A stretch of DNA of 64,000 bases from Methylophilaceae bacterium (GTDB lineage Bacteria; Pseudomonadota; Gammaproteobacteria; Burkholderiales; Methylophilaceae), in NCBI GenBank assembly GCA_013141125.1, contig JABFRO010000001.1, forward strand, positions 248,001-312,000, in the 5' to 3' direction. Within the stretch, counting starts at the first letter, position 1. Each line of letters starts with the position of its first letter. This document shows positions 32,246 to 62,000 of the stretch, in pieces. A program made the translations under genes and the position numbers. The notes beneath the pieces are model-generated. The model was not told where the DNA came from. It made no database searches and was given only the letters and a program-made list of their open reading frames with translations.

Positions 32246-32563
32246 TTTTGTGAAACTGCTACTTTAATTGTGTCCCGTCCCCTATTCCGATTCCGCGTGA
32301 TTGTGAAGTACCCCGGGCATCGTTGAAATCAGCCCCTCGATCGTATTATTCCATTGAGACGCTTACCCTGCCGTGTGGTGCTCTAAAAAATGAATGGATT
32401 AAATCGAGACTGACCCTAATTATTAATCGAGACTGACCCTAATTATTTAATTATTACCCTAATTGTTTTAACTGGGCGCGCAATTTTGATATGTCGGAAA
32501 TTCGCAAATATTACGCAGAACAAGCTGGGAATGAAGAATAAATCTTTTTAAATTTTAGGATTA
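32246..32563. other. Non-coding stretch with repeat motifs and a possible gene tail
   Basis: Contains gtcccgtcccctattccg (32270-32287) and two direct copies of aatcgagactgaccctaatta around 32400-32440, the same motif types found at other broken gene ends in this window. From about 32475 a plus-strand frame reads NWARNFDMSEIRKYYAEQ and ends at a stop at 32539-32541; it lacks a plausible start and may be the tail of a lost gene. Confidence 0.45.
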
Positions 32564-33034
32564 ATGATGGAAACCAAACCACCTCTCCCGCCTTTCACGC
32601 TAGAAACCGCCACGCAAAAAGTACGCATGGCAGAAGATGCCTGGAACTCGCGCGATCCGGATCGCGTTGTTCTGGTGTATACCGAAGACACCGTGTGGCG
32701 CAATCGCGCGGAGTTTCCGGTCGGACGCGAACAGGTCAAACAATTTCTGCAACGCAAATGGGCGAAAGAGCTGGAATATCGCCTGATCAAGGAATTGTGG
32801 GCGTTTACCGGCAACCGCATCGCCGTGCGTTTTACCTACGAATGGCACGATGATTCCGGGCAATGGTTCCGATCCTACGGCAACGAAAACTGGGAATTCA
32901 ATGAACAGGGATACATGCAACGCCGCTTCGCCAGCATCAATGACCTGCCGATCAAGGAAACCGAACGCAAATTCTTCTGGCCGCTGGGTCGCCGCCCCGA
33001 CGACCACCCTGGCCTAAGCAATTTAGGGCTATAA
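32564..33034 (+). CDS. DUF1348 / SnoaL-like (NTF2-fold) protein
   Basis: 156 residues, near the family norm. The DUF1348 pattern is clear: [68 protein letters not shown] and [33 protein letters not shown]2-fold single-domain proteins include hydrolases and isomerases; no activity is established for this group. A second ATG three bases downstream (32567) could be the true start. Flanked on both sides by repeat sequence. Confidence 0.88.
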
Positions 33035-33039
33035 CTTTA

Positions 33040-33131
33040 GCGCGGTAGGTTGGGCTAAATGCAATGAAGCCCAACAATAAACAATTCCTTGAATGTTGGG
33101 CTTCGCTACCGCTCTGCCCAACCTACCGCGC
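33040..33131. repeat. REP-like palindrome, copy 1
   Basis: Outer 16-bp perfect arms gcgcggtaggttgggc / gcccaacctaccgcgc. Inner arms gaagcccaaca / tgttgggcttc. A second copy, inverted, lies at 51426-51516. This is the pattern of paired REP sequences mobilised by RAYT transposases, and an intact RAYT lies at 61063. Confidence 0.85.
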
Positions 33132-33203
33132 TACCCTTACGGAATCAAATATGCCTACTAACACAGAATCAGTTTAATCAGTTGGGTTACCTAGTCATTT
33201 GGT

Positions 33204-33857
33204 TTATGCATCAATTGTTTTAAACGGTTCCAGAGTAGGTAAACTGTCTTTGTAGTCGATTTGCAATTGTTTAACTAGGCTGACTAAGCTGTAATCTCCA
33301 CTCATTCTAGCGAGTACCATTGCCACCATAATATTCAATGCATTTGAACCCTGTACTATTTGAATAAGCAGTGCTTCAGGGTAGCCGTTTAGAAATCGTT
33401 CAATTGGAAGAAAGCCATTATGAACATAACTATTCATTCCACTCCAAGTCGCTTCTTTGAATGAACTAAGCATCTCACCAGGACCTTTCACTTGGCCTTT
33501 AGAAATCTGCTCAATCATCTCAGTAATGGTTGGAAAATCTGGTGGGAGTTTTGTAATGTCTGTTGGTGCGGCATACTTAGCCAAAAAACTATCTTTAGCA
33601 GCTAAGTGGGTCCACATAGCTCTTGCTACAGCTTCGTATTGCAGCCTTAACAATGAAACGGCTGTTGTATAGTTATTAGCTGTCATTAACAGCATGATGC
33701 TATTTGAGTGTTCTAATGAAATTCCAGATAGGCTTTTGGTTAGAACACTTCTAATTGATCTGTCGTGGTCAACTAAATAAACTTCATGCATGATAATTGC
33801 ATGCAATTCATTTGAGCGGTTAAGAGTTGTTGCTAAATTAGATTTCGTAGATTCCAT
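33204..33857 (-). CDS. Uncharacterised all-helical protein (DUF6988-like)
   Basis: 217 residues, helical, soluble, no signal. The pattern NRSNELHAIIM, LEHSNSIMLLMTANNYTTAVSLLRLQYEAVARAMW and GMNSYVHNGFLP recalls a family of uncharacterised proteins I know as DUF6988. That assignment is from memory of the pattern only. It lies among repeats and truncated genes with lower GC than its surroundings, consistent with acquired DNA. Function unknown. Confidence 0.6.
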   Translation of the reverse strand: MESTKSNLATTLNRSNELHAIIMHEVYLVDHDRSIRSVLTKSLSGISLEHSNSIMLLMTANNYTTAVSLLRLQYEAVARAMWTHLAAKDSFLAKYAAPTDITKLPPDFPTITEMIEQISKGQVKGPGEMLSSFKEATWSGMNSYVHNGFLPIERFLNGYPEALLIQIVQGSNALNIMVAMVLARMSGDYSLVSLVKQLQIDYKDSLPTLEPFKTIDA

Positions 33858-33942
33858 TAAACAAATGCCAATTTAGAGTTTTAGTAGGACTTACACATAG
33901 CACCAACTGATAGGTTTAATTTTTTACGAAAAGGATGAAAGG

Positions 33943-34275
33943 TTAAAGCATTCCACCGCAACTAGGGCACTTCTTTGCATTAGCTTTCACTTGTTCACCG
34001 CAATGGAAACAAAAGTCGAGTTCACTACTCTCATCTTGTGATGTTGAAGTTGGTGCAGCGATAGCATTAGTATCTTCGTCTTTATCTTGTCTAATGAGTC
34101 CTTCTGAACTGTCATAACCCAGTACATAAGAAGCAAATACCGACTGAACCTCAAAAATATTTAGCTGGCTATTGAACTCTTTCTGAATAGGGGTTTGAGT
34201 ACCTGAAACCCATATTTTCAGTTCGGCATCTAGGTCAAATGTATCGGAATAGGGGACGGGACCAAGGCTGTTCAC
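33943..34275 (-). pseudogene. C-terminal remnant of a zinc-ribbon protein
   Basis: The frame gives 110 residues and ends in two C-x-x-C knuckles (CFHCGEQVKANAKKCPSCGGML). Its first residues, up to about SDTFD, are encoded by repeat DNA carrying ccgtcccctattcc. The real protein therefore starts inside sequence that has been replaced, and the 5' end of the original gene is missing. A REP-like element follows directly upstream. Confidence 0.6.
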
Positions 34276-34368
34276 TTAGCAATAATTCGTTCGCCCTAAG
34301 CTGTCGAAGAGTTTTAGATGAGTATTGAGTGGTTCGACAAGCTCACCACGAACGGTTAAGTGAACAGC
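34267..34368. repeat. REP-like inverted repeat upstream of the zinc-ribbon remnant
   Basis: Outer 12-bp arms gctgttcactta / taagtgaacagc. The interior has ggttcgacaagctcaccacgaac (split here around 34331-34353), a type of REP core seen in many proteobacterial genomes. Flanked on both sides by gggac motifs (about 34247 and 34373). Confidence 0.65.
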
Positions 34369-34501
34369 ATTGGGGACGTAACACGATTAAACATTCCACT
34401 AAGCTGAAATGATTCGATGCGGGATTAATGATCTTGCCTTGTTGCTTGGCGAGTTCTATTTCATGGAATGGTTGTGTCATTTGGGGTCCTGCGAAATCTT
34501 T

Positions 34502-35476
34502 TCATCTTGTGGCATCGCGGAAGCAGGCTTTGAAAGCGTCCATCTTTGAATTGTCGCTGTTGATGAGCGGTTTGCATTTCTCAAAAGCGGCCTTGCGCAT
34601 GACGGATTTCTCGGCATTGGCGGATTCGCGTGCGGCGCTTTCGGCTTCAATCCTGGCGGTGCTTTCCAGCTGTATCCTATCGACCTTGTCCCAGCCTGCT
34701 TGTGCTGCAGCGGGTCTGCTTGAACCGCCTCCAGCATAGGTGGGGGTCGGCGGTTGGCCGTCGGTGCGAAAGCTGGTAAACATGGTGATGCAAGCCTTAC
34801 CAATCGGGATGATGTCTCCTTTGTAATCTGCACACTGCCCGCGCTCAAAGCTCACCAACTGGCTAGTGGAAATATCAAATACGCCTGAACCTATGCCGTC
34901 GTTCATGTTGGTGCCGCAGAGCATACGTGCGGTATAGGGGATGCTGAGAATTGGCTTGATACAGCCAGCACCCTGGCTTTGCATAGTAACCGCGCTTAAC
35001 GCTCCAGTACCTGTAGTGGATGCCGCGTAGGCGTTCAATTTGTGTTTCGCAATTAAATCTGCACAGGTGAGCCCCGGCAAAACACCGGTCAAATTCACTT
35101 CAATCTTGTTGTGATATTTATCGACTGGCTGCGACATTACGGTAAAACCGGTGGTGCCATCAACGCGTAGGTAAGGTGTGCCAAACTCAGGTGCGACTGT
35201 AATCAATTTTCCAGTATCTGCATTGGCCAGGCAAAACGCGGGTTGATTACTGCGTTGCAGCTTGCTGTACATCATGGCGTAACCCAACACTTTTACGCTG
35301 CCTGTGGATTGGATGCCATTGTCTATGCCATCCGACACACCTTTTTTGACGGCACCGACCAACTTGCCCAGAAAACCTTCTTCTTGCGGGGCGGTAGCTT
35401 CTTCGGTATCCGCAGCCGGGGCAGACAGTGCAGTTAATAGCGTGATGAGGAGTAGAGTAGTTTTGCCGGAATGCAT
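34502..35476 (-). CDS. Exported protein of unknown function
   Basis: 324 residues with a Sec signal peptide (MHSGKTTLLLITLLTALSAPAAD, cleavage after about residue 21). An amphipathic stretch (GFLGKLVGAVKKGVSDGIDNG) follows, then a Cys-containing body with six or more cysteines, suggesting disulfides in the periplasm. The C-terminus is Ala/Glu-rich and probably coiled coil (RIEAESAARESANAEKSV). I do not recognise the family. It is probably monocistronic. Confidence 0.7.
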   Translation of the reverse strand: MHSGKTTLLLITLLTALSAPAADTEEATAPQEEGFLGKLVGAVKKGVSDGIDNGIQSTGSVKVLGYAMMYSKLQRSNQPAFCLANADTGKLITVAPEFGTPYLRVDGTTGFTVMSQPVDKYHNKIEVNLTGVLPGLTCADLIAKHKLNAYAASTTGTGALSAVTMQSQGAGCIKPILSIPYTARMLCGTNMNDGIGSGVFDISTSQLVSFERGQCADYKGDIIPIGKACITMFTSFRTDGQPPTPTYAGGGSSRPAAAQAGWDKVDRIQLESTARIEAESAARESANAEKSVMRKAAFEKCKPLINSDNSKMDAFKACFRDATR

Positions 35477-35857
35477 TTTGATCCCCCTGCGTTGTGGGTA
35501 GCGCTAGCTTGCACCGAAATCAATTAACCCCTTGAATGAATTCGGTGTTATTGATTGCTCATAATAAAATGCCGGTTTATTTTTTGCAACCAATTAACAT
35601 TAGGCAACCAAGCCAGGTAGAAACTGATGTATCCGTCAAGCTAAAAAGGGCGATTGCTAGTCAACTCTCGCGTTACCAGCAATTGCGTGGGTACAAAATC
35701 GGTACCACCGTATACAAACTTATCCATTGGCATGGCAGTTTAACAAACAAATCCTATTGAGTTATTAGTACGCTAGCGCACAGACAAACCTGGTGAAATG
35801 GAGGAATATATTATTTGGAGTCGTCATTGGATGATTGTTAAATGGAGAACCTTACAA
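35477..35857. other. Gap without a confident gene
   Basis: 381 bp between divergent genes. A 74-codon plus-strand frame at 35536-35760 has no ribosome binding site and no recognisable features; I do not call it. Otherwise AT-rich, probably holding the promoters of both neighbours. Confidence 0.4.
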
Positions 35858-36214
35858 ATGAAAACGCGAACCCGATTACTTTTACTGGCTACAACGATGG
35901 CAGGTATAGTGCTGTTTAACACTGGCTGCAATAAGCCGCAACAGTCGGCAGACAGCTTGCCGTCCAACCCTGCTAGCGGGGCTCATAATGTTCCAACGCA
36001 TATTAATGACAGTGACGTGACATCACGGGTCAAATCCGCTCTACTTCAGGACGATAGCTTGAAAAATTCTGCTATAACTGTTGTAACACTCAAGGGGGAT
36101 GTTCGTCTCACTGGAGCAGTCGAAAACCAGAGTCAGATTGACTATGTGGATAAATTAGTCCGCAGTATTGAAGGTGTTCACACTATTCATGATGAGCTGA
36201 GCATTAAAAAATAG
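35858..36214 (+). CDS. BON-domain lipoprotein
   Basis: 118 residues from ATG 35858 (MKTRTRLLLLATT), chosen for the ggagaa site upstream and the lipoprotein signal with lipobox FNTGC. One BON domain follows (DVTSRVKSALLQDDSLKNSAITVVTLKGDVRLTGAVENQSQIDYVDKLVRSIEGVHTIHDEL). BON proteins of the OsmY type sit in the periplasm or outer membrane and are linked to envelope or osmotic stress. Confidence 0.85.
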   Translation: MKTRTRLLLLATTMAGIVLFNTGCNKPQQSADSLPSNPASGAHNVPTHINDSDVTSRVKSALLQDDSLKNSAITVVTLKGDVRLTGAVENQSQIDYVDKLVRSIEGVHTIHDELSIKK

Positions 36215-36342
36215 GGTAGTTTGGAATAATTGTGTCACAACCACTGCGCTGCGCGAATTGACTTGATTTGCCACAATAAATTGTGATGCCTTGTAAGGCT
36301 AACGTAAGCTTGGCTTGCTAAAGTGCATATTCGTGTTGCAGT

Positions 36343-36723
36343 GTGATTGAACCAGCTGCCGCTAGCGTTTCTGCAACCTGTAAAGATGGAACTACCTATA
36401 CTGGCACAACAAAAAGTGGCGCATGTTCTGGCCACAAAGGCGTGCAATCATGGGATGCCGCTGCAGCTTCCATAACCGCTGCACAGGCTAAAGCTGCTGC
36501 TGCACCTGTTAAAGCCGCTGCTACGCCTGCCAAGGCTGGCGCTGCCAGCACCTCTGTCGCAGCTGGCGGTGGCACAGGTAAGGTTTGGGTGAACAGTGCC
36601 TCTAATGTTTACCATTGTTTTGGTTCCAAGTTTTATGGCAAAACCAAAGCGGGCGCTTATATGACGGAGGCAGAGGCGAAAGCAAAAGGTGGTCATGCAG
36701 ACCACGGTAAAGCTTGTAGCTAA
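36343..36723 (+). pseudogene. DUF3761-like protein lacking its signal peptide
   Basis: The body (ATCKDGTTYTGTTKSGACSGHKGVQSW, Ala/Lys-rich linker, then VWVNSASNVYHCFGSKFYGKTKAGAYMTEAEAKAKGGHADHGKAC) is a typical small exported protein with a DUF3761-like end. Just before it stands AAASVSA, which looks like the end of a signal peptide, but the hydrophobic core is missing: the frame reaches a stop at 36319-36321 and only a GTG (36343) can start it. Either the 5' end was lost or a base is wrong upstream. Terminator at 36739 follows. Confidence 0.6.
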
Positions 36724-36738
36724 TAATTACGACGAAAG

Positions 36739-36769
36739 AAAAAGCCCCAGCTTTAGCTGGGGCTTTTTT
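36739..36769 (+). terminator. Rho-independent terminator
   Basis: Stem agccccagc / gctggggct, loop ttta, flanked by A5 and T7 runs. It lies 16 bp after the DUF3761-like frame. Confidence 0.92.
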
Positions 36770-36987
36770 ATGAGCATAATTTAACTTTGACGAATCTTGG
36801 CTTTGCCGTTGAGCCGAGGGTGTAATAAATTTCGAGCAAGACTCAACCAAACTTTTCGCTATCCGAATTTACCAATATCCCAATAGCTTTCTAAAGCTCG
36901 GTTATATCGACCAGAGCTATGCCGAATTTCAAGAAAAACCGCGATGTGGTATAAGCTCAAGTACTCAATTTAATTACGAAATAATCA

Positions 36988-37704
36988 ATGAACAATATCT
37001 ATCTCACCATGCTGATACCGGCCGTGGTATCCGTTCTTGGTGGCTTGCTGGCGGTTTTCTGGAACCCATCACACCATATGCGCAGCCTGATTCAGCATTT
37101 TGCGGCAGGTGTGGTGCTTGCGGCCTTGGCGGTGGAGGTATTGCCGGAATTAGGGCGTGAACATGCGCCGGGATGGGTGTTGATTGGTTCTTTTGCTTTC
37201 GGCGGTCTGGTGATGTACGCCATGAAGCTTTGGTCTATTCGCATGGAATTGGCCGCTAAAACTTTGAGCAAGAGTGAGCAGTGGAATTACGGTTTGATAT
37301 TGGCCACATTTATGGATGTTTCTGTGGATGGTTTTATCATAGGTGCGGGCTTTGCCGCTGGTGCTAATACGGGTTTGGTGTTGGCATTGGGCTTATCGGT
37401 AGAGCTGCTCTTTCTGGGGCTATCTTTAGTTTCCGAAACGGTTAAAGGCTGGCGCGTGGCTGTGATAACTTCACTTTTGGCTTTTGTGGTTTTGGCAGGT
37501 ACTTTTATGGGGTACTTCTTACTCAAAGGCGCTTCCGTGAGCAGTATTAGCGCGATTTTGGCGTTTGGTGTGGCCGCCTTGTTGTATCTGGTAACGGATG
37601 AGTTGCTGATTGAAGCGCATGAGGTTGAAGAAAAGCCTTCTTCAACTTTATGGCTGTTTTCGGGGTTTTTAGTGTTTTGGAGTATTCAGTTATTTAGCGC
37701 ATAG
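36988..37704 (+). CDS. ZIP-family metal transporter
   Basis: 238 residues with about eight membrane segments. ZIP hallmarks: HFAAGVVLAALAVEVLPELG, the TM4-like ATFMDVSVDGFIIGAGFAAG and TM5-like GLSVELLFLGLSL, then VTDELLIEAHEVEE. In the core helices the usual HN...H metal residues are replaced by D-x-x-D-G and S-x-E. This subgroup occurs in bacteria and its substrate is not established. Monocistronic, convergent with the YigZ gene. Confidence 0.8.
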   Translation: MNNIYLTMLIPAVVSVLGGLLAVFWNPSHHMRSLIQHFAAGVVLAALAVEVLPELGREHAPGWVLIGSFAFGGLVMYAMKLWSIRMELAAKTLSKSEQWNYGLILATFMDVSVDGFIIGAGFAAGANTGLVLALGLSVELLFLGLSLVSETVKGWRVAVITSLLAFVVLAGTFMGYFLLKGASVSSISAILAFGVAALLYLVTDELLIEAHEVEEKPSSTLWLFSGFLVFWSIQLFSA

Positions 37705-37726
37705 GTGCTTGAATAGCGGCGAGTCA

Positions 37727-38293
37727 TCACACGTCACTAAAACGTTTTTGAAAATTGGCGGCTTCGTGACTAGGTAGCGTGGCAATCAAGCTCACGCGTT
37801 CGGCAAATTGTTTATCTACAATCTTGCCGTTCACTTTCTCCAGGGCATGGGTAAAACTATCCAGTTTTGCGTAATCCAGCACCAGACTGATCTCGCTCAT
37901 TTCCACAAATGGAAGCAATTGCGCAGCGTCTATCGCCATTTTGGCGGTGCCACCATAGGCGCGCGCCAAACCGCCGGTGCCCAGATTGATGCCGCCGTAA
38001 TAGCGGATAACTCCCACACAGACATTGACCAGTTTTTGCCCTTCCAGCGGCTGCAAAATTGGCCTGCCCGCCGTGCCGGAAGGCTCGCCGGCATCATGCA
38101 TACGTTGCGTGATACCTTTTGCATTTTTGATTTGATAGGCAAAAGCCAGATGATGGGCATGAGGATGTGCCGTCGCCAGCTTGGTTAAAAAAAGCGCCAC
38201 TTCACGCTCGTTTGCGCAATATTCAGCCCTGGCGACAAAGCGCGATTTGTTGATGGTTTGCTCGGCCTGCCCGGCTTTGGCAATGGATTGCAT
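37727..38293 (-). CDS. YigZ/IMPACT (UPF0029) family protein
   Basis: 188 residues. The UPF0029 core is clear: SRFVARAEYC, AHHLAFAYQI, DAGEPSGTAGRPILQPLEGQ and VGVIRYYGGINLGTGGLARAYGG. The second domain is an EF-G-like fold (ISLVLDYAKLDSFTHALEK). The eukaryotic homologue IMPACT modulates Gcn2; bacterial YigZ is of unknown role, possibly binding ribosome or RNA. Confidence 0.88.
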   Translation of the reverse strand: MQSIAKAGQAEQTINKSRFVARAEYCANEREVALFLTKLATAHPHAHHLAFAYQIKNAKGITQRMHDAGEPSGTAGRPILQPLEGQKLVNVCVGVIRYYGGINLGTGGLARAYGGTAKMAIDAAQLLPFVEMSEISLVLDYAKLDSFTHALEKVNGKIVDKQFAERVSLIATLPSHEAANFQKRFSDV

Positions 38294-38369
38294 TGATGTG
38301 ATGCCTTAAAGTGACTTGTTATCAGGCCGCATTATCTCATTTTCATAAAAAGTCAGCTATCTTGCTGAA

Positions 38370-39236: not shown

Positions 39237-39418
39237 GATGTCATACCAATACGTTACTTGTTAAGTTACTCTAAAACGAGTTTGTGTTGATATCAATTCA
39301 ATTAACGATTGTTAACTTATTTTGTTAATAATCATGTTGTTAACAATTATTTACCGTGAAAACGGGTAAGTTGCCTGAATCTGAATCTCCTTTAAAAGTT
39401 GGGTGTTAAATCTTCTCA

Positions 39419-40756: not shown

Positions 40757-40774
40757 GAGTGTGATCTTTTAAAA

Positions 40775-46326: not shown

Positions 46327-47316
46327 ATGAGTGAAACAACAGCACAATTGGATACCAGTTATTGGCCTAGCGTAAATAGTTTGACCAACCCCTTGGTGCA
46401 ATACCTGGTAGACAATGCCAAAAGCTTGCGTATCGGTGTGGAAAAGCACGCCAGTGGCGCGACCATTATTGATGCCGGTATCAAGTTCCCCGGCGGTCTG
46501 GAGGCAGGGCACCTGATTGCGGAAATTTGCATGGGCGGATTAGGCCATGTCAGCCTGCAAACTTCGACTACCTTTGCCCATTGGCCCTGGTTGTTGTCTG
46601 TGCATTCCAATAATCCGATTTTGTCTTGCCTGGGCAGTCAATATGCGGGTTGGAGTCTGGCGCATGAAAAATTCTTCTCACTGGGTTCCGGCCCCGGCCG
46701 TGCTTTGGCCGGGCGTGAAGAGCTGTACAAGGAATTGGGCTACAAAGATAGCAGCAATGCCGCCGCTCTGGTGTTGGAAAGTGACAAGGCACCGCCACAG
46801 GAAGTGATAGAAAAAGTAGCGCGTGATACCGGCGTAGCTGCTGAAAACCTGACCTTTATCCTCACGCCAACGCGCAGCCTGGCTGGCACTGTGCAGATCG
46901 TATCGCGCGTGCTGGAAGTGGCCATGCACAAGATACACACCCTGCATTTTCCGCTGGATCATGTGGTGGATGGTATGGCCAGCGCGCCAGTGCCACCACC
47001 GGCACCAGACTTTTTGCAAGGCATGGGGCGCACCAACGACGCTATTTTGTTTGGTGGCCATGCACATATTTTTGTTAAAGGTTCTGACGAAGCCGCCGCC
47101 AAGCTGGCGCTAGAGTTGCCAAGCAGCTCATCACGCGATTATGGCCGTCCATTTGCTGAAGTATTCAAAAGTGTGAACATGGATTTCTACAAAATAGATC
47201 CCATGCTGTTCAGTCCGGCCGCTGTGACCATTACCGCGTTGGAATCCGGCAACAGCTTTGTCGGTGGCAAACTGGATGCTGCACTGCTGGATCAATCTTT
47301 CGGTTACAAAGCTTAA
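46327..47316 (+). CDS. mch: Methenyltetrahydromethanopterin cyclohydrolase
   Basis: 329 residues, family length. Hydrolyses methenyl-H4MPT to N5-formyl-H4MPT in the C1 oxidation route. Characteristic stretches: LRIGVEKHASGATIIDAGIKFPGGLEAGHLIAEICMGGLG, SLGSGPGRALA and GMGRTNDAILFGGHAHIFV. Ribosome binding site gagga lies in the end of the preceding gene, so translation is probably coupled. The stop codon lies in the arm of a 33-bp perfect inverted repeat. Confidence 0.96.
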   Translation: MSETTAQLDTSYWPSVNSLTNPLVQYLVDNAKSLRIGVEKHASGATIIDAGIKFPGGLEAGHLIAEICMGGLGHVSLQTSTTFAHWPWLLSVHSNNPILSCLGSQYAGWSLAHEKFFSLGSGPGRALAGREELYKELGYKDSSNAAALVLESDKAPPQEVIEKVARDTGVAAENLTFILTPTRSLAGTVQIVSRVLEVAMHKIHTLHFPLDHVVDGMASAPVPPPAPDFLQGMGRTNDAILFGGHAHIFVKGSDEAAAKLALELPSSSSRDYGRPFAEVFKSVNMDFYKIDPMLFSPAAVTITALESGNSFVGGKLDAALLDQSFGYKA

Positions 47317-47419
47317 TGCGTAGGGTGGGCAACGTCCTTTTGCCCACGCGAATGCTTAATTTCGTAGCGAATGCTATTCAAACCTGGTGGGCAAAAGGAC
47401 GTTGCCCACCCTACGCATT
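47315..47419. repeat. 33-bp perfect inverted repeat at the 3' end of mch
   Basis: Arms 47315-47347 and 47387-47419 are exact reverse complements (begin aatgcgtagggtgggcaacg, continue ccttttgcccac) around a 39-nt loop. The left arm overlaps the mch stop codon. No U-run follows. The sequence type (gtagggtgggca) resembles widely scattered REP-like palindromes, and it may end or stabilise the H4MPT transcript. Confidence 0.85.
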
Positions 47420-50209: not shown

Positions 50210-50461
50210 ATGATATATCTTTGGATATTTTTAGGTTGTTACGCACTTGCATTCGTAATTATCACCATGAAAATGGCTGCTCAAACAGCACGCATGAAAT
50301 CCCGCCTAAGAGATTTTGGCGCTTCTGAAAAAAAGTTCGACACTATCTACCGACATGAAATTAGCTTGCTACATGAAATACTGATTCGTATATGGTCGCC
50401 ATTCATATTTAGTGTTATTCCAGCAGTATTTGAGAACAATAGGGGACAGCAACTGTCTTGA
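50210..50461 (+). pseudogene. Small membrane protein, C-terminus replaced by repeat DNA
   Basis: 83 codons. One N-terminal membrane helix (MIYLWIFLGCYALAFVIITMKMA), then a charged stretch (RMKSRLRDFGASEKKFDTIYRHEISLLHEI). The last eight codons or so (ENNRGQQLS) are encoded by aataggggacagcaactg, a motif that recurs at other junctions in this window. The original 3' end is therefore lost. Confidence 0.5.
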
Positions 50462-50571
50462 AATAAATTGTTTTTGACCGGTTTTCAAGCAGCCTCCACC
50501 TCCCGCCAAGGCGTATTGTTTTTCACCATGGCATTCAAAATCACCAGCAATTTACGCATACAAGCCACCAG
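50447..50571. repeat. 125-bp direct repeat, copy A (IS110 3' end)
   Basis: Begins cagcaactgtcttgaaataa and ends tacgcatacaagccaccag. Copy B at 50612-50736 differs at 2 positions. The second half corresponds, on the minus strand, to the last codons of an IS110-family transposase. The copies are separated by 40 bp containing aggggacagaccacggtt. Confidence 0.85.
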
Positions 50572-50611
50572 GGAAACAATAGGGGACAGACCACGGTTTA
50601 ATGATAGGGGT

Positions 50612-51285
<674 letters not shown>

Positions 51286-51295
51286 GACACCAACA

Positions 51296-51429
51296 ATAGC
51301 AACAATAGGGGACAGACCACTGTTTAATGATATATTTTGGTTTTAATCTTCCTTCGGATTTTGGAGTTTTAATTACCGCGCCGCCCCCTCATTATTTTGT
51401 CCAATGTGCCACAACATCTGATCCTGCGT
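51296..51429 (+). pseudogene. RAYT leader and first codons, fused to a REP palindrome
   Basis: aataggggacagaccac, the leader with cttccttcggattttggagtttt, and then about 20 codons closely matching the start of the intact RAYT at 61063 (ccgcgccgcccc ... ccaatgtgccacaacatctgatcc). At the point where the intact gene continues gcggtaacaatcg, this copy goes straight into the REP palindrome 51426-51516. Confidence 0.85.
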
Positions 51430-51516
51430 GGTAGGTTGGGCAGAGCGATAGCGAAGCCCAACATTTATGGCATCGTTATTGTTGGGCTTCATTACATTCA
51501 GCCCAACCTACCGTGC
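51426..51516. repeat. REP-like palindrome, copy 2
   Basis: Outer arms gcgtggtaggttgggc / gcccaacctaccgtgc (2 mismatches) and inner arms gaagcccaaca / tgttgggcttc. In reverse orientation it is nearly the same sequence as 33040-33131. Attached to the RAYT leader remnant. Confidence 0.85.
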
Positions 51517-51534
51517 CAATAGGGTCATACTCGA

Positions 51535-52388: not shown

Positions 52389-52576
52389 AATAAATCTCCT
52401 TAAAATATTAGTCTTGTATAGAGCAGATTCAGTATAAAGTGGTTTAAGATTAACGGCTTGTCCAGGACGGGGTCAAGACTAGACTGAAACAGTGGTTTTA
52501 TAATTAACAGGTCAGGAAACCAGCCCTGATAGTGGCGGCCGTTAGTAGAAAACAGCTTTTGAAAGGAGGTTTCCCC

Positions 52577-53569
52577 ATGGACAAACCCACTCAAATTTTG
52601 CCAGGCGAACGGAGTTTTCCTGAGCGTGGCTTTAGGCTTTCTACAGAGGATATTCCTCTACGTGAAAGGCGTGATTGGTTGCAAGAGATAATCCGTCAAG
52701 AGTACACCAAAGTTGAGATCACGCCTTCGGCAGATGGCGAGCTATTGAATGAGATGACATTTTATAGCTGGGAGAAGCTCAGACTGTCCATCATTCGCTC
52801 ACACGCTATTACGCTTGAGCGATTGCGTGGCGAGCCTTACTTGCTGAGTCAGGATAATTATTTTGCGGTAATCCCGTTATCTGGTGATTATGTACTTGAG
52901 CAAAACGGACGTGAGGTTTTTCTACAACCCGGCGATATGGCCATTTATGATGCCACTCAGACGCATCGTCTCCAGTGTTCGCGCAATTTCTCAAAACTAA
53001 TCATTAGCATTCCCCGTGCCATGATGCGCGACAGGATGGCTGGAATCGAGCACTGCACAGCATTACGCATTCCCGGCAATGCGGGTATTGGACTGGTGAC
53101 TTCCAGCTTTATTCGTTCAGCTGCCAATCAGGCGGATACATTTAGTGAAAACCAGATTTCTGCGCTGTCACTACATGCACTGGATTTGCTGACTTTAGCG
53201 CTGGCATCAGTGCAGCCGCAGACTTTCAATTTATCTCGGAGCCGTTTAATTTCGCTTAATCTGGTCAAGGATTTCGTCGAACGTCATCTGTCCGACTCAA
53301 CCCTGGATACCAGCATGATCGCTGCTGGTGTAGATTTATCGCCGCGCTACATAAATGATTTGTTTAGTGATGAGGATAATTCGTTGATGCGTTTTGTCTG
53401 GCAACGTCGATTGGAAAACTGCCGGAAAGATATGTTAAATTCCGTCTACCAATCCTTACAAATCTCCGAGATTGCTTACCGCTGGGGATTCAATGATATG
53501 TCACATTTTAGCCGCGCGTTTAGGCAGAGATTCGCTTGCTCACCAAGTGCGTTGCGAGCAGGCTCTTAG
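52577..53569 (+). CDS. AraC-family transcriptional regulator (FeaR-like)
   Basis: 330 residues from ATG 52577, with a perfect aaaggaggt site. The N-terminal half is an AraC-binding-like sensory domain (RLSTEDIPLRERRDWLQEII, YFAVIPLSGDYVLEQNGREVFLQPGDMAIYDATQTHRL). The C-terminal 100 residues carry two helix-turn-helix motifs, ending ISEIAYRWGFNDMSHFSRAFRQRFACSPSALR. The N-terminal type is found in regulators of aromatic amine and aldehyde catabolism. A 274-bp internal part is duplicated upstream at 51012-51285. Its stop overlaps the convergent TetR gene by 4 bp. Confidence 0.9.
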   Translation: MDKPTQILPGERSFPERGFRLSTEDIPLRERRDWLQEIIRQEYTKVEITPSADGELLNEMTFYSWEKLRLSIIRSHAITLERLRGEPYLLSQDNYFAVIPLSGDYVLEQNGREVFLQPGDMAIYDATQTHRLQCSRNFSKLIISIPRAMMRDRMAGIEHCTALRIPGNAGIGLVTSSFIRSAANQADTFSENQISALSLHALDLLTLALASVQPQTFNLSRSRLISLNLVKDFVERHLSDSTLDTSMIAAGVDLSPRYINDLFSDEDNSLMRFVWQRRLENCRKDMLNSVYQSLQISEIAYRWGFNDMSHFSRAFRQRFACSPSALRAGS

Positions 53570-54186: not shown

Positions 54187-54215
54187 ACTTAAAAAATTTC
54201 CCTAAAATTGGTGTT

Positions 54216-54239
54216 TACATACGCTGTTGTTTGTATATA
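54216..54239. promoter_or_regulatory. AcrR-like operator 1
   Basis: 24-bp site with arms TACATAC and GTATATA around a 10-bp centre. It matches the outer parts of the known AcrR operator (TACATAC...GTATGTA). Nearer to the TetR gene start (30 bp). Confidence 0.6.
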
Positions 54240-54253
54240 ATTTGCCTGTACTT

Positions 54254-54277
54254 TACATACAAGCAGAAATGTATGCA
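54254..54277. promoter_or_regulatory. AcrR-like operator 2
   Basis: 24-bp site TACATACA...AAATGTATGCA, agreeing with the E. coli AcrR operator at both ends with near identity. It lies 44 bp before the membrane-fusion protein start and would repress the efflux operon. Confidence 0.75.
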
Positions 54278-54320
54278 AGAGGTTTCGCCGTAATGTGTAA
54301 TACAAAACATGGAGTTAGCA

Positions 54321-55520: not shown

Positions 55521-55529
55521 AGAAAAATC

Positions 55530-58500
55530 ATGACCAGATTCTTTATTACACGGCCGATTTTTGCCTCGGTTCTGTCTATCATTATTGTGCTGGCAGGTTT
55601 GGCTGCTGTGCTCAAGTTGCCGATTGCACAATATCCGCAGATAGCACCGCCTACGGTGATGATTACGGCGACTTATCCGGGTGCCAGCGCTGAAACACTG
55701 TCGAAAACCGTGGCGGCACCCATTGAAGAGCAGCTGAGCGGAGTGGAAGGCTTGCTGTATTTTAATTCCAGCGCCGATTCCAGCGGCACTTTGACCATTA
55801 CCGCGACGTTTGAAGTGGGGACGGAAATCAATCAGGCGACTTTCAACGTCAGCAATCGCGTTAATATCGCTTTGCCGCGTTTGCCGGATGAAGTGCGGCG
55901 TACCGGTCTGGTGGTGCAAAAGCGCTCCAACGATATATTGCTTGTGGTAATGCTCACGTCTAAAGACAAAAAGCTGGATCCGCTTTTTTTGAGTAATTAC
56001 GCCACGCTTAATGTGCTGGATGAACTCAAACGCATCAAGGGCGTGGGTGATGCCACGATTTTTGGCGCGCAGGATTACGCCATGCGTATCTGGCTGCGCC
56101 CGGATAGGATGGCGCAACTGGGAGTGACGACCAGCGATATTGTGACGGCGATCCAGGCGCAAAACATGCAATATGCTGCCGGTAAAATTGGGCAGGATCC
56201 GGCACCGGATGACCAGCAGTTGGTTTACACCGTCACAGCCAAAGGGCGTTTGATTGATCCGGCAGAATTCGGCAACATTATTTTGCGTGCGGATGGCGCA
56301 CGCGGTGTGTTGCATCTGCAAGATGTGGCGCGTATCGAGCTGGGTTCACAAAGCTATAACGTGCGCACCGCGCTGGATGGGCAGCCTGGTGTGGGCATTC
56401 CCATTTTCCTGCAGTCCGGTGCCAATGCGCTGGATACCGCCAACGCCATTAAAGCCAGAATGAATGAATTAAAAGCACGTTTCCCGGCTGGAATGGATTG
56501 GGAAGTGCCGTATGACACCAGTGATTTTGTTAAAGCCTCTATGCTTGAGGTGGCTAAAACCCTGGGCGAAGCCATGCTGTTGGTGGTCTTGGTGGTATTT
56601 GTATTCCTGCAAAGTTGGCGTGCCACTTTAATTCCGGTGATTGCCGTGCCTATTTCGCTGATAGGCACATTTGCCGGATTATGGCTGTTTGGTTTTTCTA
56701 TTAATACGCTGACCCTGTTTGCCATGGTGCTATCCATCGGTATCGTGGTGGATGATGCAATCGTGGTGCTCGAAAACGTCGAGCGTCTGATGACCGAAGA
56801 GAAACTTTCCCCGATGAATGCGGCCATCAAATCCATGCAACAAGTGTCGGGAGCGATTGTCGCCATTGTGCTGGTGTTGTGCGCGGTATTTGTACCGGTG
56901 GCTTTTCTTGGTGGCATTGCCGGTGAGCTTTATCGGCAGTTTGCGGTGACTGTTGCTGTCGCGGTGGTGATTTCAGGTGTGGTGGCATTAACGTTAACAC
57001 CAGCCCTTTGCGCGATTTTACTAAAATCGGTGCATGGTGAATCCACATTTTTTCGCCCCTTCAACCGTGGCTTTGAAGGCTTAACGCGCTTTTATTTACG
57101 CATGGTTAACCGTACTTTGCACCACGCCATTATTGGCACGGTGGTGTTTGTCGGCATTTTCGCTATTGTGGCTTATCTCATTAACAGCATACCCGGCGGC
57201 TTTGTGCCGCCAGAAGATCAGGGCTATGTGATTACGGCCGTCATCATGCCGGATGGTGCCACCTTGAGCCGCACGACAAAAACCACAGAAGCGGTGCGTG
57301 CTGCCATTGCACAAGACCCAGCGGTAGCCCATGAATTCGCCGTTAATGGTTTTGATTTGATCGGCGGTGGCAATAAAACCAGTGCGGCCACCATGTTTGT
57401 GCGTTTGAAAGATTGGTCAGAACGTACTGCTACAGCAGATGACATTGTTAAAAAGTTGTTTGGCATCGGTATGATGCAGCCCGATGGTTTGGCGATTGCG
57501 TTTAATCCGCCTGCCATTCGCGGGCTAGGTAATTCCGGCGGGTTTGAGGTTTATGTGCAAAGCCGTAGTGATTCTGATCCACAACGTTTGGCTCAGGTGG
57601 TGACCTCGCTAACCGAGGCTTTATCCAAAGAGCCCAAACTCGCCGGTATTCAAACTTTCTTCCGCCCCACGGTGCCGCAATTGTTTGTTGAGGTGGATGA
57701 AGCCAAAGCCATCTCACAAGGGGTGCGCGTGGCCGATATTTACGCCACTTTGCAAAGCACCATGGGCTCGTTATATGTGAATGATTTCAATAAATCCGGC
57801 CGCACTTATCGCGTGCAATTGCAGGCGGAGTCGGAGTTTCGCCGCCAGCCGGATGATTTGGGCAAGGTCTATGTGCGTTCGCAAGCGGGTGCGATGGTAC
57901 CTTTGTCTGCCCTGAGCAAGATCAGCAATATTGTGGGGGCGGAACAATTGGAGCGCTACAACGGTTTGTTATCGGCCAAAGTAATGGGCGGTGGAGCGCC
58001 GGGTGTGAGTTCCGGTGATGCGATCGCGCTGGTGGAAAAAATCGCCGCGCAAAACCTGCCGGATGGTTATCAGATTGCCTGGACAGGACAAGCCTATCAG
58101 GAAAAACGCACCGGTTCAGCGGCCGTGTTTGCCTTTACCTTCGCTATCGTCATGGTGTTTTTGATTCTGGCCGCACAGTTTGAAACCTGGGCCTTGCCGC
58201 TGGCGGTGATTATGGCAGTGCCGTTTGCATTGGCAGGCGCTTTGCTGGCGGTATATATGCGTGCCATGCCGAATGACATTTACTTCCAGATCGGGCTGAT
58301 TACGCTGATTGGTCTGGCGGCCAAGAATGCCATTCTGATTGTGGAATTTGCCAGCCAGAAGATGGAGCAGGGCATGCCAACGGCGCAAGCCGCACTGGAA
58401 GCCGCACGTTTGCGCTTCCGTCCTATCGTGATGACTTCAATGGCGTTTGTGTTGGGCATAGTGCCGCTGGTGATTGCCACCGGTGCCGGTTCTGCCGCGC

Positions 58501-58670
58501 GCCGCTCAATGGGCACCGGCGTATTTGGCGGCATGTTGCTGGCAACCTTTGTGGCGACGGTGTTTATCCCGCTGTTTTTCACCTGGCTTTCCGGTAAACA
58601 GCTACACCGTCATCATGAAACGGATAGCGCCAACCTGCAACAAGCCGAAGTGCAAAAGGAAGCTAAATAA
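55530..58670 (+). CDS. RND multidrug efflux pump (AcrB/MexB type, HAE1)
   Basis: 1046 residues, 12 membrane helices. Starts MTRFFITRPIFASVLSIIIVLAGL. The proton relay aspartates are in SIGIVVDDAIVVLENVERL; the second repeat has IGLAAKNAILIVEFA. Large periplasmic loops carry the substrate pockets. Exports drugs, solvents or detergents by proton antiport. Starts 9 bp after the adaptor gene and overlaps the channel gene by 1 bp. Confidence 0.96.
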   Translation: MTRFFITRPIFASVLSIIIVLAGLAAVLKLPIAQYPQIAPPTVMITATYPGASAETLSKTVAAPIEEQLSGVEGLLYFNSSADSSGTLTITATFEVGTEINQATFNVSNRVNIALPRLPDEVRRTGLVVQKRSNDILLVVMLTSKDKKLDPLFLSNYATLNVLDELKRIKGVGDATIFGAQDYAMRIWLRPDRMAQLGVTTSDIVTAIQAQNMQYAAGKIGQDPAPDDQQLVYTVTAKGRLIDPAEFGNIILRADGARGVLHLQDVARIELGSQSYNVRTALDGQPGVGIPIFLQSGANALDTANAIKARMNELKARFPAGMDWEVPYDTSDFVKASMLEVAKTLGEAMLLVVLVVFVFLQSWRATLIPVIAVPISLIGTFAGLWLFGFSINTLTLFAMVLSIGIVVDDAIVVLENVERLMTEEKLSPMNAAIKSMQQVSGAIVAIVLVLCAVFVPVAFLGGIAGELYRQFAVTVAVAVVISGVVALTLTPALCAILLKSVHGESTFFRPFNRGFEGLTRFYLRMVNRTLHHAIIGTVVFVGIFAIVAYLINSIPGGFVPPEDQGYVITAVIMPDGATLSRTTKTTEAVRAAIAQDPAVAHEFAVNGFDLIGGGNKTSAATMFVRLKDWSERTATADDIVKKLFGIGMMQPDGLAIAFNPPAIRGLGNSGGFEVYVQSRSDSDPQRLAQVVTSLTEALSKEPKLAGIQTFFRPTVPQLFVEVDEAKAISQGVRVADIYATLQSTMGSLYVNDFNKSGRTYRVQLQAESEFRRQPDDLGKVYVRSQAGAMVPLSALSKISNIVGAEQLERYNGLLSAKVMGGGAPGVSSGDAIALVEKIAAQNLPDGYQIAWTGQAYQEKRTGSAAVFAFTFAIVMVFLILAAQFETWALPLAVIMAVPFALAGALLAVYMRAMPNDIYFQIGLITLIGLAAKNAILIVEFASQKMEQGMPTAQAALEAARLRFRPIVMTSMAFVLGIVPLVIATGAGSAARRSMGTGVFGGMLLATFVATVFIPLFFTWLSGKQLHRHHETDSANLQQAEVQKEAK

Positions 58671-60094
58671 TGAAGCATACAAAATTAAATCACTGGGTCA
58701 TGCTCACCGTAATCAGCTCGGTGCTGGCGGCGTGTGCAGCGGTTGGCCCGGATTACAAACGCCCGCAAAATCTGGCTCCTGCGCAATTCAGCGAGGCCGC
58801 TAATGCGACCGAAATCCAGGATAAGCTGGCGGTTTCCAGCACCTGGTGGACGCTGTATCAGGATGCTGAACTCAACGCCTTGATGGACAAGGCTTTGCAA
58901 AACAATACCGATATTCGGCTGGCCGTGGCGCGCGTGGAAGAGCTGGAGGCTTATTCAAAGGAAATCGGTTCCGGTATATTCCCGACCATCAATCTGGATT
59001 CCAGTGGCAGCCGCTTACGCGCCAGTAGCATAGGGCGTATGCCGTTTCCACCCGGTGCCAACTCCTTGCAGAAGGATTTTATTTTGCAGCTTGGCACCTC
59101 GTTTGAGCTGGATTTCTGGGGTAAAGCCAGACGCGCCAGAGAATCCGCCCGCGCCCAGGCGCTCTCTACACGCTATGCCAAAGATACGGTGGCTTTGACC
59201 CTCACCGGCATGGTCGCCAGCAGCTATTTGCAGATTCGCAGTCTGGATGCGCAAATTGCGCTATCGCGCGATAGCCTGCGCAGCCGCGATGAAAGCTTGA
59301 GCCTCACCCAACGGCGCTTGCAGGGCGGCATCGCCTCGGCGCTGGATGTGGATCAAGCCGAAGTTTCCCGCGCCAATTTGCAGGCACAGATTGCAGAGTT
59401 AATACGACTACGCGCTCTGGGTGAGCATCAATTGGCCATACTCACCGGCGAGCTGGATTTAAAGCTGGCAGCAGGTGACATCAAAACCTTGCCCATGCCG
59501 CCACAACCGCCAGCAGGCTTGCCTTCCAGCCTGCTGGAAGCACGGCCGGATATTCGCCAGGCCGAGCAGAATATGGTGGCCGCCAATGCCAAGATAGGCG
59601 TGGCCAAAGCCGCCTTGTTCCCAACTATTTCGCTAACGGCTAATTACGGTGGTGAAAGCGGTGATCTTAGCAATATTCTCAAATCCGCCGCGCGCATCTG
59701 GACGGGTGGTTTGAGTCTGAACCTGCCTATTTTTGATGCAGGCCGCATTAATTCGCGCATACAACAAGCCAGTGCCCAACAAAAACAAGCGCTGATTTCT
59801 TATGAAGCCGCCATTCAATCCGCATTCAGGGAAGTGAATGATGCACTGGTCAACCTGCGCCAAAATTCCGAGCGCGAAGTGGCGCTGAATACCAGCCAGC
59901 AATCCGCCAAAAAAGCCTATGAAATCTCGATCAACCGCTATAAATCCGGCTATTCCGCCTATCTGGAAGTGTTGGATGCCGAGCGCGTTTATAACGACAG
60001 CGCACTGGCCTACGTGCAAAACCGCCAGGCCAGACTCATCGCTAGTGTGGATTTATTCAAAGCGCTAGGCGGGGGATGGGAAGCGCAACCGTAA
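58670..60094 (+). CDS. Outer-membrane efflux channel (OprM/NodT type)
   Basis: 474 residues. Lipobox LAAC after MKHTKLNHWVMLTVISSV; then VGPDYKRPQ, the standard opening of this family. The two OEP repeats follow (SYLQIRSLDAQIALSRDSLRSRDESLSLTQRRLQGG; LPSSLLEARPDIRQAEQNMVAANAKIGVAKAALFPTISL). ATG overlaps the pump stop codon (TAATG), so translation is coupled. The last 17 codons reappear as a separate copy at 61836-61908. Confidence 0.95.
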   Translation: MKHTKLNHWVMLTVISSVLAACAAVGPDYKRPQNLAPAQFSEAANATEIQDKLAVSSTWWTLYQDAELNALMDKALQNNTDIRLAVARVEELEAYSKEIGSGIFPTINLDSSGSRLRASSIGRMPFPPGANSLQKDFILQLGTSFELDFWGKARRARESARAQALSTRYAKDTVALTLTGMVASSYLQIRSLDAQIALSRDSLRSRDESLSLTQRRLQGGIASALDVDQAEVSRANLQAQIAELIRLRALGEHQLAILTGELDLKLAAGDIKTLPMPPQPPAGLPSSLLEARPDIRQAEQNMVAANAKIGVAKAALFPTISLTANYGGESGDLSNILKSAARIWTGGLSLNLPIFDAGRINSRIQQASAQQKQALISYEAAIQSAFREVNDALVNLRQNSEREVALNTSQQSAKKAYEISINRYKSGYSAYLEVLDAERVYNDSALAYVQNRQARLIASVDLFKALGGGWEAQP

Positions 60095-60301
60095 CAAGGC
60101 GCAGATTTATTCGTCATCCTCGCGCAAGCGGGGATCCAGACTATTGATTAAATTAGATTTCAGTCTTCGCGGAATGACAAAATTGAATAAATTATAAATA
60201 ATTCGAGTCTGACCCTTGAGGATGTCAGCAATAAGAAAGATGAATTAATTGAAAAAGCAGCGACACTTAAAAAGGAATATGATGAGAGTCAGCGAAGGAA
60301 A

Positions 60302-60733
60302 ATGGAGGACTGGGTATATAAGAAGGAAGCAGAGCTAAAAGAACTGGAGGAAACACTCAAAAAACGCGAAGATATAATAAGACAAAATGAGCTTAAATTA
60401 AAGCAGAAATTCTTTGTCAGGTTTATTGGTGTGGCTGCGGGGTTATCAGTAATTGGATTCTTTGCACTTGCTGCATTTACGGCAACAACAGAAACCGGAA
60501 AGCATTCATTGACAACTCAGGCTGAAAATACTGAAGCAATATTGCCGCCAACAAATTCATCAGAGCCTTACACACCTAGGGAGTCGGCGGTATATAGCAC
60601 ATACGGCGATATAGATGAGACAAACCCTAAGTTCGATGTTGGTAATTATTGTTTAGAGAAGGAAAAAAAAGGTGGCATTACTTTCGAAGAATGTTTGGCC
60701 GTTGCCGCTTCAAAAATTATGTCCAGACAATAA
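60302..60733 (+). pseudogene. Coiled-coil membrane protein, 5' end missing
   Basis: From ATG 60302: coiled coil (KEAELKELEETLKKREDIIRQNELKLKQK), one membrane helix (FIGVAAGLSVIGFFALAAFTA), and a C-terminal domain with two cysteines. The same frame stays open upstream and codes more coiled coil (LEDVSNKKDELIEKAATLKKE) until it meets tcgagtctgaccc at about 60208. The original start is thus lost to repeat DNA. A shorter protein from 60302 may still be made. No family recognised. Confidence 0.55.
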
Positions 60734-60883
60734 TATGCTAAGAAGTCATTCATTATTGACGCTCCGACGCCCCACAATTCGAACGTTAGACAAAGGTGAA
60801 ATCTATGACTTCAACGATGATTAATAAAGTCAGCGAGTTCCATAATCGCTTGGCTATAGCAGTTTTTCAATTTCGCACCTTAT

Positions 60884-61062
60884 AGGGGACAGACCACCAT
60901 TTAATGATATACTTCGGTTTAATCTTCCTTCGGATTTTGGAGTTTTAAATTGCCACGCCGCCCCCGCATTATTTTGCCCAATGTGCCACGAACAATAGGG
61001 GACAGACCACGGTTTAATGATATACTTCGGTTTAATCTTCCTTCGGATTCTGGAGTTTTAAA
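60884..61062 (+). repeat. Tandem RAYT leader (113-bp unit)
   Basis: The unit beginning aggggacagaccac, with atatacttcggtttaatcttccttcgga and the first codons of the RAYT gene up to ccaatgtgccac, occurs at 60884-60996 and again from 60997, where it runs on into the intact gene. The stretch 60734-60883 holds nothing I recognise. Confidence 0.85.
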
Positions 61063-61764
61063 TTGCCACGCCGCCCTCGCATAATTTTGCCCAATGTGCC
61101 ACAACATCTGATCCAGCGCGGTAACAATCGACAAGCCTGTTTCTATGCGGATGAGGATTATCTTTCGTATCTGGAATGGCTGAAGGAATATTCGGAAAAG
61201 TCTGGCTGCAAAATCCACGCTTATGTGCTCATGACCAATCATGTGCATTTGCTGGTTTCCAGCGATAACGTTGAGGCTATTGGTGCCATGATGAAGGCAT
61301 TGGGGCAGCGTTATGTGCAGTATATCAATCGTAGTTATGGGCGTAGCGGCACGTTGTGGGAAGGGCGTTATCGGTCTTGTCCCACCCAGGCCGAAAATTA
61401 TTTACTCGCTTGCCAGCGTTATATTGAGCTTAATCCCGTGCGCGCGAATATTGTCTCCCATCCTGCTGATTACCGTTGGTCGAGCTACCGTGCCAATGCC
61501 CAAGGGGAAGCGAGTGCTGTCATCCAGCCGCATGTATTATACGGTGCGTTGGGTGGGGATGCGGTAAGCCGGCAGGCGGCTTATCGTGAGTTATTCAGGT
61601 ATGCGCTGGATATTGGGCTGATTGATGAAATACGCCGTGCGACCAATAGCAATTATGCACTGGGCAATGCGGCGTTTGCTTTGCAGGTATCTGAAGCCTT
61701 GGGGAGGCGGGTGACACCGGGGAAATCGGGCAGACCCAGAAAGAGTGTACCTGAGCTGATTTAA
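61063..61764 (+). CDS. rayT: REP-associated tyrosine transposase (RAYT, Y1_Tnp)
   Basis: 233 residues from TTG 61063 with a ggag site. Y1-type HUH nuclease: the metal-binding HVHLLV (MTNHVHLLVSSDNVEAIGAMMKALGQRYVQYINRSYGRSGTLWEGRYRS) and the catalytic Tyr in the helix CQRYIELNPVRANIV. The family cuts single-stranded REP hairpins and spreads them. Typical neighbours (REP palindromes at 33040 and 51426) are present. The downstream flank accgtggtctgtcccc is the inverse of the leader motif ggggacagaccacggt, so the gene sits in a 16-bp inverted frame. Confidence 0.93.
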   Translation: MPRRPRIILPNVPQHLIQRGNNRQACFYADEDYLSYLEWLKEYSEKSGCKIHAYVLMTNHVHLLVSSDNVEAIGAMMKALGQRYVQYINRSYGRSGTLWEGRYRSCPTQAENYLLACQRYIELNPVRANIVSHPADYRWSSYRANAQGEASAVIQPHVLYGALGGDAVSRQAAYRELFRYALDIGLIDEIRRATNSNYALGNAAFALQVSEALGRRVTPGKSGRPRKSVPELI

Positions 61765-61835
61765 AGCCCTGCTTAAACCGTGGTCTGTCCCCAATTATGG
61801 TCCCCAATTATGATTCTGCAATTCTGCAATTCTGC

Positions 61836-61908
61836 ATCGCCAGTGTGGATTTATTCAAAGCGCTAGGCGGGGGATGGGAAGCGCAGCCTTGAGGAAGCGC
61901 TGATTTAA
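61836..61908 (+). pseudogene. Second copy of the efflux-channel 3' end
   Basis: Codes for IASVDLFKALGGGWEAQP and a stop, matching the last codons of the OprM-type gene at 60038-60094. The similarity extends about 15 bp beyond the stop. The stop differs (TGA instead of TAA) and a few third positions differ. Between the two tails lie the truncated coiled-coil gene and the RAYT. Confidence 0.8.
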
Positions 61909-62000
61909 TGTCATTTTGAGTAAAGCGAGAAATCTATCTGACCCCAATTTACTTTATAGATGCGACAATGTTTGCCTATCACTCATAGCGGAATCCAGCC

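Follow-up and report, generated by a model that had tools for sequence, protein, structure and literature searches.

RAYT-like genes (REP-associated tyrosine transposases) that are flanked by terminal inverted repeats have been described as TIRYT, and the elements they form as TIRtrons, with GGGGWSAS as the sequence shared by the repeats (Di Nocera et al. 2013, PMC3733652). In the accessible text of Quentin et al. 2018 (PMC6006769), 20 of those 26 TIRYT examples fall into subclass 2.1, REP-like sequences were not found there, and a C-terminal helix-turn-helix or DnaA_C-like domain is named for the subclass; the same paper cites Bertels et al. 2017, whose RAYT group 1 corresponds to TIRYT. HUH enzymes, to which these transposases belong, form a 5'-phosphotyrosine and a free 3'-OH, which can prime synthesis or attack the phosphotyrosine (excerpted text of PMC8266576). 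The 64,000-nucleotide (nt) stretch of a Methylophilaceae genome analysed here (the window) contains a complete TIRtron. The family is thus already known. What is new, as far as our literature search reaches, is a variant in which the ends carry short tandem duplications ('stutters') and truncated copies are anchored at the left end.

The complete element consists of the following parts, T1 being one of three motif families (T1, T2 and T3) that we defined within the window:

60990..61017, plus strand: left terminal T1 repeat, with GGGG at 60998
61063..61764, plus strand: RAYT/TIRYT gene, HUH-Y1 transposase of 233 residues with a TTG start (Pfam Y1_Tnp)
61773..61800, minus strand: right terminal repeat (T1, inverted), from the repeat comparison and the motif scan, GGGG at 61792 (minus)

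The RAYT protein matches PF01797 (Y1_Tnp) at 1e-15. It stays under the cut-offs of both NCBIfam models that it resembles (NF047646, REP-associated tyrosine transposase: 65.1 bits, cut-off 80; NF033573, IS200/IS605: 24.7 bits, cut-off 55), and Pfam gives no match up to E 10 for its C-terminal 92 residues, though many of these positions are conserved among relatives. An alignment built from the best 80 relatives, with 7 omitted, has HVH at residues 60-62 (H60, H62) and several tyrosines, including Y113 and Y120, in 74/74 sequences. The copies of GGGGACAG at 60998 (plus) and 61792 (minus) are the two ends of one element, a pairing that the initial annotation of this DNA had overlooked. A second, diverged RAYT copy is found elsewhere in the same genome (L301 145 and 897-1153; contig C4, about 872.1 and 872.9 kb); it matches at 58% over 66 residues and has an open frame of 135 residues. 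GGGGTCAG precedes its start by about 59 nt, and an inverted GGGGTCAG stands another 750 nt or so upstream.

The assignment of T1 comes from the relatives of this gene. A scan of one genome per species confirmed at least 490, of which the best 80 were used; by title many are betaproteobacteria, and the rest include Pseudomonas and sulfate reducers. Of the 80 loci, 76 have 100 nt or more on either side of the gene, and the other 4 were omitted. In these 76 the motif lies upstream of the gene in 69, inverted downstream in 54 and on both sides in 50, and the left motif starts 53-78 nt before the coding sequence in 66/69. Within 300 nt of the genes there are 155 motifs in 46,254 nt, compared with 74 in 571,293 nt beyond. 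The exact T1 13-mer is present in all five genomes, out of 41 searched, that have a RAYT of at least 65% identity (16, 11, 11, 2 and 1 copies), and in three of the remaining 36, as a single copy each; the genome of the window has 19 motif matches at up to two mismatches. Since the motif flanks RAYT genes and tracks RAYT genomes, we conclude that T1 is the terminal inverted repeat of the window's RAYT element, a TIRtron of the TIRYT class (RAYT-type HUH with a single catalytic tyrosine), and that the remaining T1 copies of the window represent solo or truncated left ends from this element family, which the initial annotation had likewise missed. The initial annotation had preferred a shared end-joining or transposition signal to chance decay as the explanation; this is right in kind and is borne out for T1. 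Repeat dimers are present in Pseudomonas genomes, and hairpin mini-elements, mostly of 57-60 nt, in several of them. No DNA match to the Pseudomonas element was found in the E. coli collection; nine plasmid records hold relatives of less than 60% identity at E 1e-30, and phages gave one partial match of 35%. In many relatives (for example L055, L056 and L078) the right tail frequently reads CGGTTTTC, the complement of the inner GAAAACCG, and a hairpin around TGGTCTGTCCC could thus form at the right end; the left tails are AT-rich.

The initial annotation had read a single short motif at many junctions. Copies do lie at or near the positions it listed: the window scan gives AGGGGACAG at 50441, 50581, 51307 (the AraC end, given before as 51296), 60884 and 60997, inverted GGGGACAG at 61785-61792, and TCGAGTCTGACCC at 60203-60215. 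The letters, however, differ at two of the positions, 34251 having AGGGGACGG instead of AGGGGACAG and 50606 having AGGGGTCAG instead of gggac, and there are further sites that had not been listed, at 32283 (minus) and as a doublet at 32404/32427. The heptamer AGGGGAC is mildly enriched (7 in the window against 2.9 expected; 2/100 shuffles reach 7). T1, AATAGGGGACAGACCACGG, has five window copies at up to three mismatches and none in 100 shuffles; T2, AGGGTCAGNCTCGA (also written AGGGTCAGWCTCGA), has four at up to one mismatch, three of them exact, against 0.03 expected. T3, GGGGACGGGAC, is found at 34251 (plus) and 32283 (minus), with one more copy in a stretch of another contig. As the short heptamer is near expectation and the long forms are far above the shuffles, the signal resides in the longer motifs. 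These form at least two families, T1 and T2, and probably a third, T3, and T2 and T3 are probably the ends of sister families of the T1 element; T3 can be called a non-chance motif only tentatively. A single common motif for all sites was rejected because T1, T2 and T3 differ, so that what survives of the earlier reading is the recurrence of long motifs, two or three families of which had been pooled. The T2, T3 and variant sites are as follows:

60203..60216, minus strand: T2 motif, outer side toward a 5'-truncated coiled-coil frame
32404..32440, minus strand: T2 doublet, 23-nt tandem unit
34248..34262, plus strand: T3-like motif GGGGACGGGAC, at the truncated zinc-ribbon gene
32272..32286, minus strand: T3-like motif, inverse, from the motif scan and the duplication scan
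61938..61945, minus strand: GGGGTCAG variant, past the duplicated 3' end of an outer-membrane-factor gene

The 3' end of the outer-membrane-factor gene (60037-60117) is duplicated, at 88%, across the RAYT element at 61835-61914, and this duplicate lies between the right end of the element and the GGGGTCAG variant.

The outer sides of the terminal repeats are frequently duplicated in tandem. We counted exact tandem runs at 117 ends with 100 nt outside, and used dinucleotide shuffles (mean over 20 sets) as the control. Runs of at least 10 nt occur outside 35/117 ends, some of which, coming from relatives, may share history, compared with 1/117 on the gene side and a shuffled mean of 0.05; for runs of at least 8 nt the corresponding figures are 40, 8 and 1.65. 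Runs of at least 12 nt are seen at 28/127 ends and in 28/5000 random windows of the same loci. The stutter junction falls within 4-14 nt outside GGGG in 37/40, most commonly at 7-9 nt, and it is at the junction, 7-9 nt outside GGGG, that the conservation of the ends also fades. The 37 inner stutter ends spread from -7 to +20 and concentrate at +1 to +3 and at +7, and 18/37 junctions have no microhomology, that is, no extra matching base. In the genome of the window (the window from 30 kb plus nine further stretches) a duplication is found at 13/33 motif sites, its junction 5-11 nt outside in 12/13, T1 and T2 alike. The outer start of a stutter is therefore nearly fixed and its inner stop variable though not uniform. 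Two examples flank T1 copies in the window:

61787..61835, minus strand: stutter beyond the right end, made up of a duplicated 13-nt unit followed by 8-nt units
51291..51308, plus strand: stutter of 9 nt that flanks the left-end copy at 51301 on its outside

Left-end anchoring prevails among the longer truncated copies. The window has three:

60878..60990, plus strand: truncated left-end copy, a 113-nt unit, 90-95% alike, head to tail before the complete element
51301..51433, plus strand: truncated left-end copy, 134 aligned positions, 90%
50575..50606, plus strand: truncated left-end copy of 32 nt

A survey of the window and the 69 relatives with an identified left end (11 of the 80 omitted) gave, at 40 nt or more, 11 left-anchored partial copies (10 once L087, which is cut by a contig end, is set aside), 1 right-anchored, 8 internal and 3 nearly full ones. 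At 30 nt or more, 13 are left-anchored (12 without L087), and they lie upstream of the full copy in 11/13. In the Pseudomonas genome G044, five matches begin at the left end and extend for 35 to 218 nt; two of these, of 193 and 135 nt, are cut short by the end of a contig. A palindromic repeat containing GTAG, GTAGGTTGGGC...GCCCAACCTAC, occurs in the window at 33037-33131 and 51426-51519, in L297 at 846-884 and in L295 at 2139-2235; it follows directly after three truncated left-end copies (51433, L297 and L295), as if one repeat family had inserted into, or ended, the other. Another perfect inverted repeat of 33 nt with a 39-nt spacer (47315-47419), at the end of the frame 46327-47316, probably belongs to yet another repeat family.

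We suggest that nicking, extension and rejoining by the TIRYT enzyme at the terminal repeat is the best explanation of these observations, and hold it to be probable on balance. The transposase would nick the strand that reads AACAATAGGGGACAGACC (the GGGGACAG strand) about 7-9 nt outside GGGG, its tyrosine holding the 5' end of the element while the flank keeps a free 3'-OH; a polymerase would sometimes extend this 3'-OH into the element, and the extended strand would then be rejoined to the held 5' end. The predicted product is a tandem copy, start..x followed by start..., with a fixed outer start, a variable inner stop and no need for microhomology, and the inverted right end would behave as its mirror image. 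The result would be either short stutters or truncated copies of the left end that measure 30 to >200 nt, and an inserted insertion sequence (IS) or gene fragment behind the end would be copied along. The wider proposal, in which the TIRYT Y1 HUH enzyme is an end-primed copier that opens its repeat at the outer end, leaves inward copying over a varying length to the host polymerase and then seals the product, whose ends grow by stutter and which copies neighbouring gene or IS fragments from a fixed start, as a bacterial form of one-ended gene-fragment capture, we regard as possible but rather doubtful.

IS110 fragments are involved in two of the junctions of the initial annotation, 50441 and 50606:

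50435..50571, plus strand: outer half of T1 fused to a truncated IS110 3' end, from the repeat comparison
50604..51011, minus strand: second IS110 3' fragment, headed by GGGGTCAG, with 99% copies on contigs C3 and C2 of the same genome

The IS110 fragment matches Transposase_20 (PF02371) at 1.3e-18 and NF033542 at 102.9 bits (cut-off 140). IS110 3' ends occur at four places in this genome, each headed by GGGGACAG or GGGGTCAG, and the 99% copy on C3 has the same IS110-AraC fusion as the window and stops at a T2 motif. A search of 399 genomes of the order, with up to two candidates scored per genome, gave a match in 8. We conclude that the IS110 group either targets the terminal repeat or has an end of its own that resembles the repeat and is treated as one. 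For these two junctions the first alternative, in which the group would use the terminal repeat as a bridge-RNA target, as IS621-like elements do with REP, is a credible one, if somewhat short of even. It is favoured by the fusion of IS110 ends to TGTCCCC or TGACCCC at the four places in this genome, by short truncated ends fused to TGTCCCC in G491 and G739, and by published REP targeting by IS110 (excerpted text of PMC1525189); however, the fused copies are all truncated fragments, no intact copy of the fused IS110 was found in this genome, and three relatives (L309, with a 342-codon frame; L311, near complete with a broken frame; L317, at a contig start) terminate in GTTGCTGGCCC, with no terminal repeat. 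The plasmid-borne IS110 relatives are too distant for their ends to be seen.

Insertion borders were sought by comparing nine joined flank pairs of Pseudomonas elements with 398 genomes. There was some match in 186; the matches (best two candidates per genome) are dominated by repeated sequences, which we take to be integron attC-like, and three of the nine pairs were inspected. The right flank of the second L230 site is common to G121, which has the element, and G369, which does not; the left flanks differ, and homology to G369 begins directly after TATTGTT. The two flanks of L229 lie about 600 nt apart in G290. The left flank of L237 is common to G289, where it continues without the element; the right flank of L237 is absent from that spot, and homology ends directly before AATAATAGGGG or one base earlier. 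The one-sided borders of the L230 and L237 sites are 7-8 nt outside the four G or C, which is the stutter junction. At none of the three inspected sites is the second flank found next in line, so that they are rearrangement junctions rather than clean insertions, a picture in keeping with the earlier impression of broken ends. In L230 and L235 (Pseudomonas G041 and G085) the repeat ends adjoin sequences that resemble integron attC sites.

Reading frames were checked at 16 places, with 600 nt of outer flank each. A long open frame enters the motif at 34252 (102 codons), 50442 (78), 51308 (141; AraC copy) and 60215 (171), but at the other nine T1, T2, T3 and variant places the longest frame has 8 to 50 codons, and two short-word copies (GGGTCAG at 56715 and GGGGAC at 55817) sit inside the uninterrupted frame 55530-58670; at the GGGGAC of 34372 the longest frame has merely 31 codons. 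The zinc-ribbon remnant at 34252 matches positions 83-122 of the 122 of the bPH_1 profile alone. One of the frames belongs to a copied fragment:

51006..51285, plus strand: AraC gene fragment, 98.6% like 53162-53442, part of the gene 52532-53569; the next left end follows

Much of the gene breakage at the motif can be put down to elements inserted in or beside genes (50442, 34252), to fragments that extend just as far as the following left end (the AraC copy at 51285, the 113-nt copy) and to the IS110 fragments. Such breakage is compatible with insertion plus end copying.

Several observations weigh against nick-extend-rejoin. As many as 82/117 ends have no stutter of 10 nt or more, the junction is not base-exact (5 to 15 nt in the main cluster, with 3/40 beyond it), and the inner ends are non-random, gathering at the first three G and after GGGGACA. 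Four partial copies of 30 nt or more are right-anchored, and the orientation of the full copy is shared by 28/29 partial-copy rows of all kinds, so that it is not special to the left-anchored ones; this common orientation, together with the copies cut by contig ends (L087 and two in G044), slightly lowers our confidence. A second step is required for those partial copies that lie at a distance from the full one (about 9.7 kb in the window), and a step in trans for mixed arrays, the array at 50435-51300, with IS110-headed beside leader-headed units, being beyond a simple local process. A fifth IS110 piece in this genome (L302; 47 nt, internal) lies beside T2 without a terminal repeat at its head. 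Finally, no clean contiguous two-sided empty site appears among the matches listed from the 398 genomes.

Replication slippage or template switching at hairpin-forming ends, with no part for the transposase, could also generate stutters. Tandem duplications near palindromes are a general phenomenon; the ends here are inverted repeats, small hairpin elements exist, and the inner stutter ends cluster in the G run. We nevertheless consider slippage unlikely, as the outer junction is nearly fixed at 7-9 nt, about half of the junctions have no microhomology and the gene side is almost free of stutters, and as it would also have to produce the 113-nt unit and left-anchored copies of >200 nt. Somewhat less probable still is a nesting of whole or mini elements that re-inserted into their own ends and were afterwards trimmed by deletion. 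Mini elements and clusters do exist and IS200/IS605 enzymes insert beside a fixed flank sequence, but units of 7-20 nt hold the outermost nucleotides alone and no inner end, and the deletion would have to halt at the next left end every time. Chance decay, in which short G-rich words would stand at gene ends by accident, has the near-expected heptamer and the short-word copies inside an intact frame in its favour, but was rejected for T1 and T2, the extended T1 being absent from shuffles and the extended T2 nearly so, and is highly improbable.

For the spread of TIRYT/RAYT elements, the stutter would, under nick-extend-rejoin, allow the position and the strand of the nick to be predicted without any data beyond the sequence. 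It is also a signature that can be counted in any genome, and stutter copying may account for genes that are fused or broken, and for chimeric fragments, at GGGGACAG or CTGACCC junctions. Among titles and abstract starts of the open-licence literature we found neither stuttered ends of RAYT/TIRYT elements nor a described cleavage site for the TIRYT class, and the motif letters as a query gave results unrelated by title.

The closest known system is the TIRtron, which likewise has a RAYT-like gene between inverted GGGGWSAS repeats at a similar distance, and repeats that also occur as single, dimer and grouped copies; it differs in that stuttered outer ends and left-anchored truncated copies are unmentioned in the accessible texts ('duplicat' has no occurrence in that of PMC3733652, 'tandem' none in that of PMC6006769). 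The REPtron with its TnpA_REP (E. coli and others) has the same kind of HUH-Y1 enzyme, which cleaves and joins single strands (excerpted text of PMC8266576), whereas here the ends are inverted repeats around the gene, and a hairpin REP tagged GT[AG]G was not noticed, no dedicated scan having been made. IS621-like IS110 elements, which insert in REP, resemble our case in that an IS110 end is fused to repeats of a Y1 family, and differ in that the fused copies here are truncated fragments. In the one-ended rolling-circle transposition of IS91 and Helitrons, which are a different HUH class from the Y1 element, the start end is fixed, the stop is variable and neighbouring DNA is captured. The ends described here share the fixed start, the variable stop and, under the proposed model, the capture of neighbouring DNA with that process, but their units are mostly tiny and arranged in tandem.

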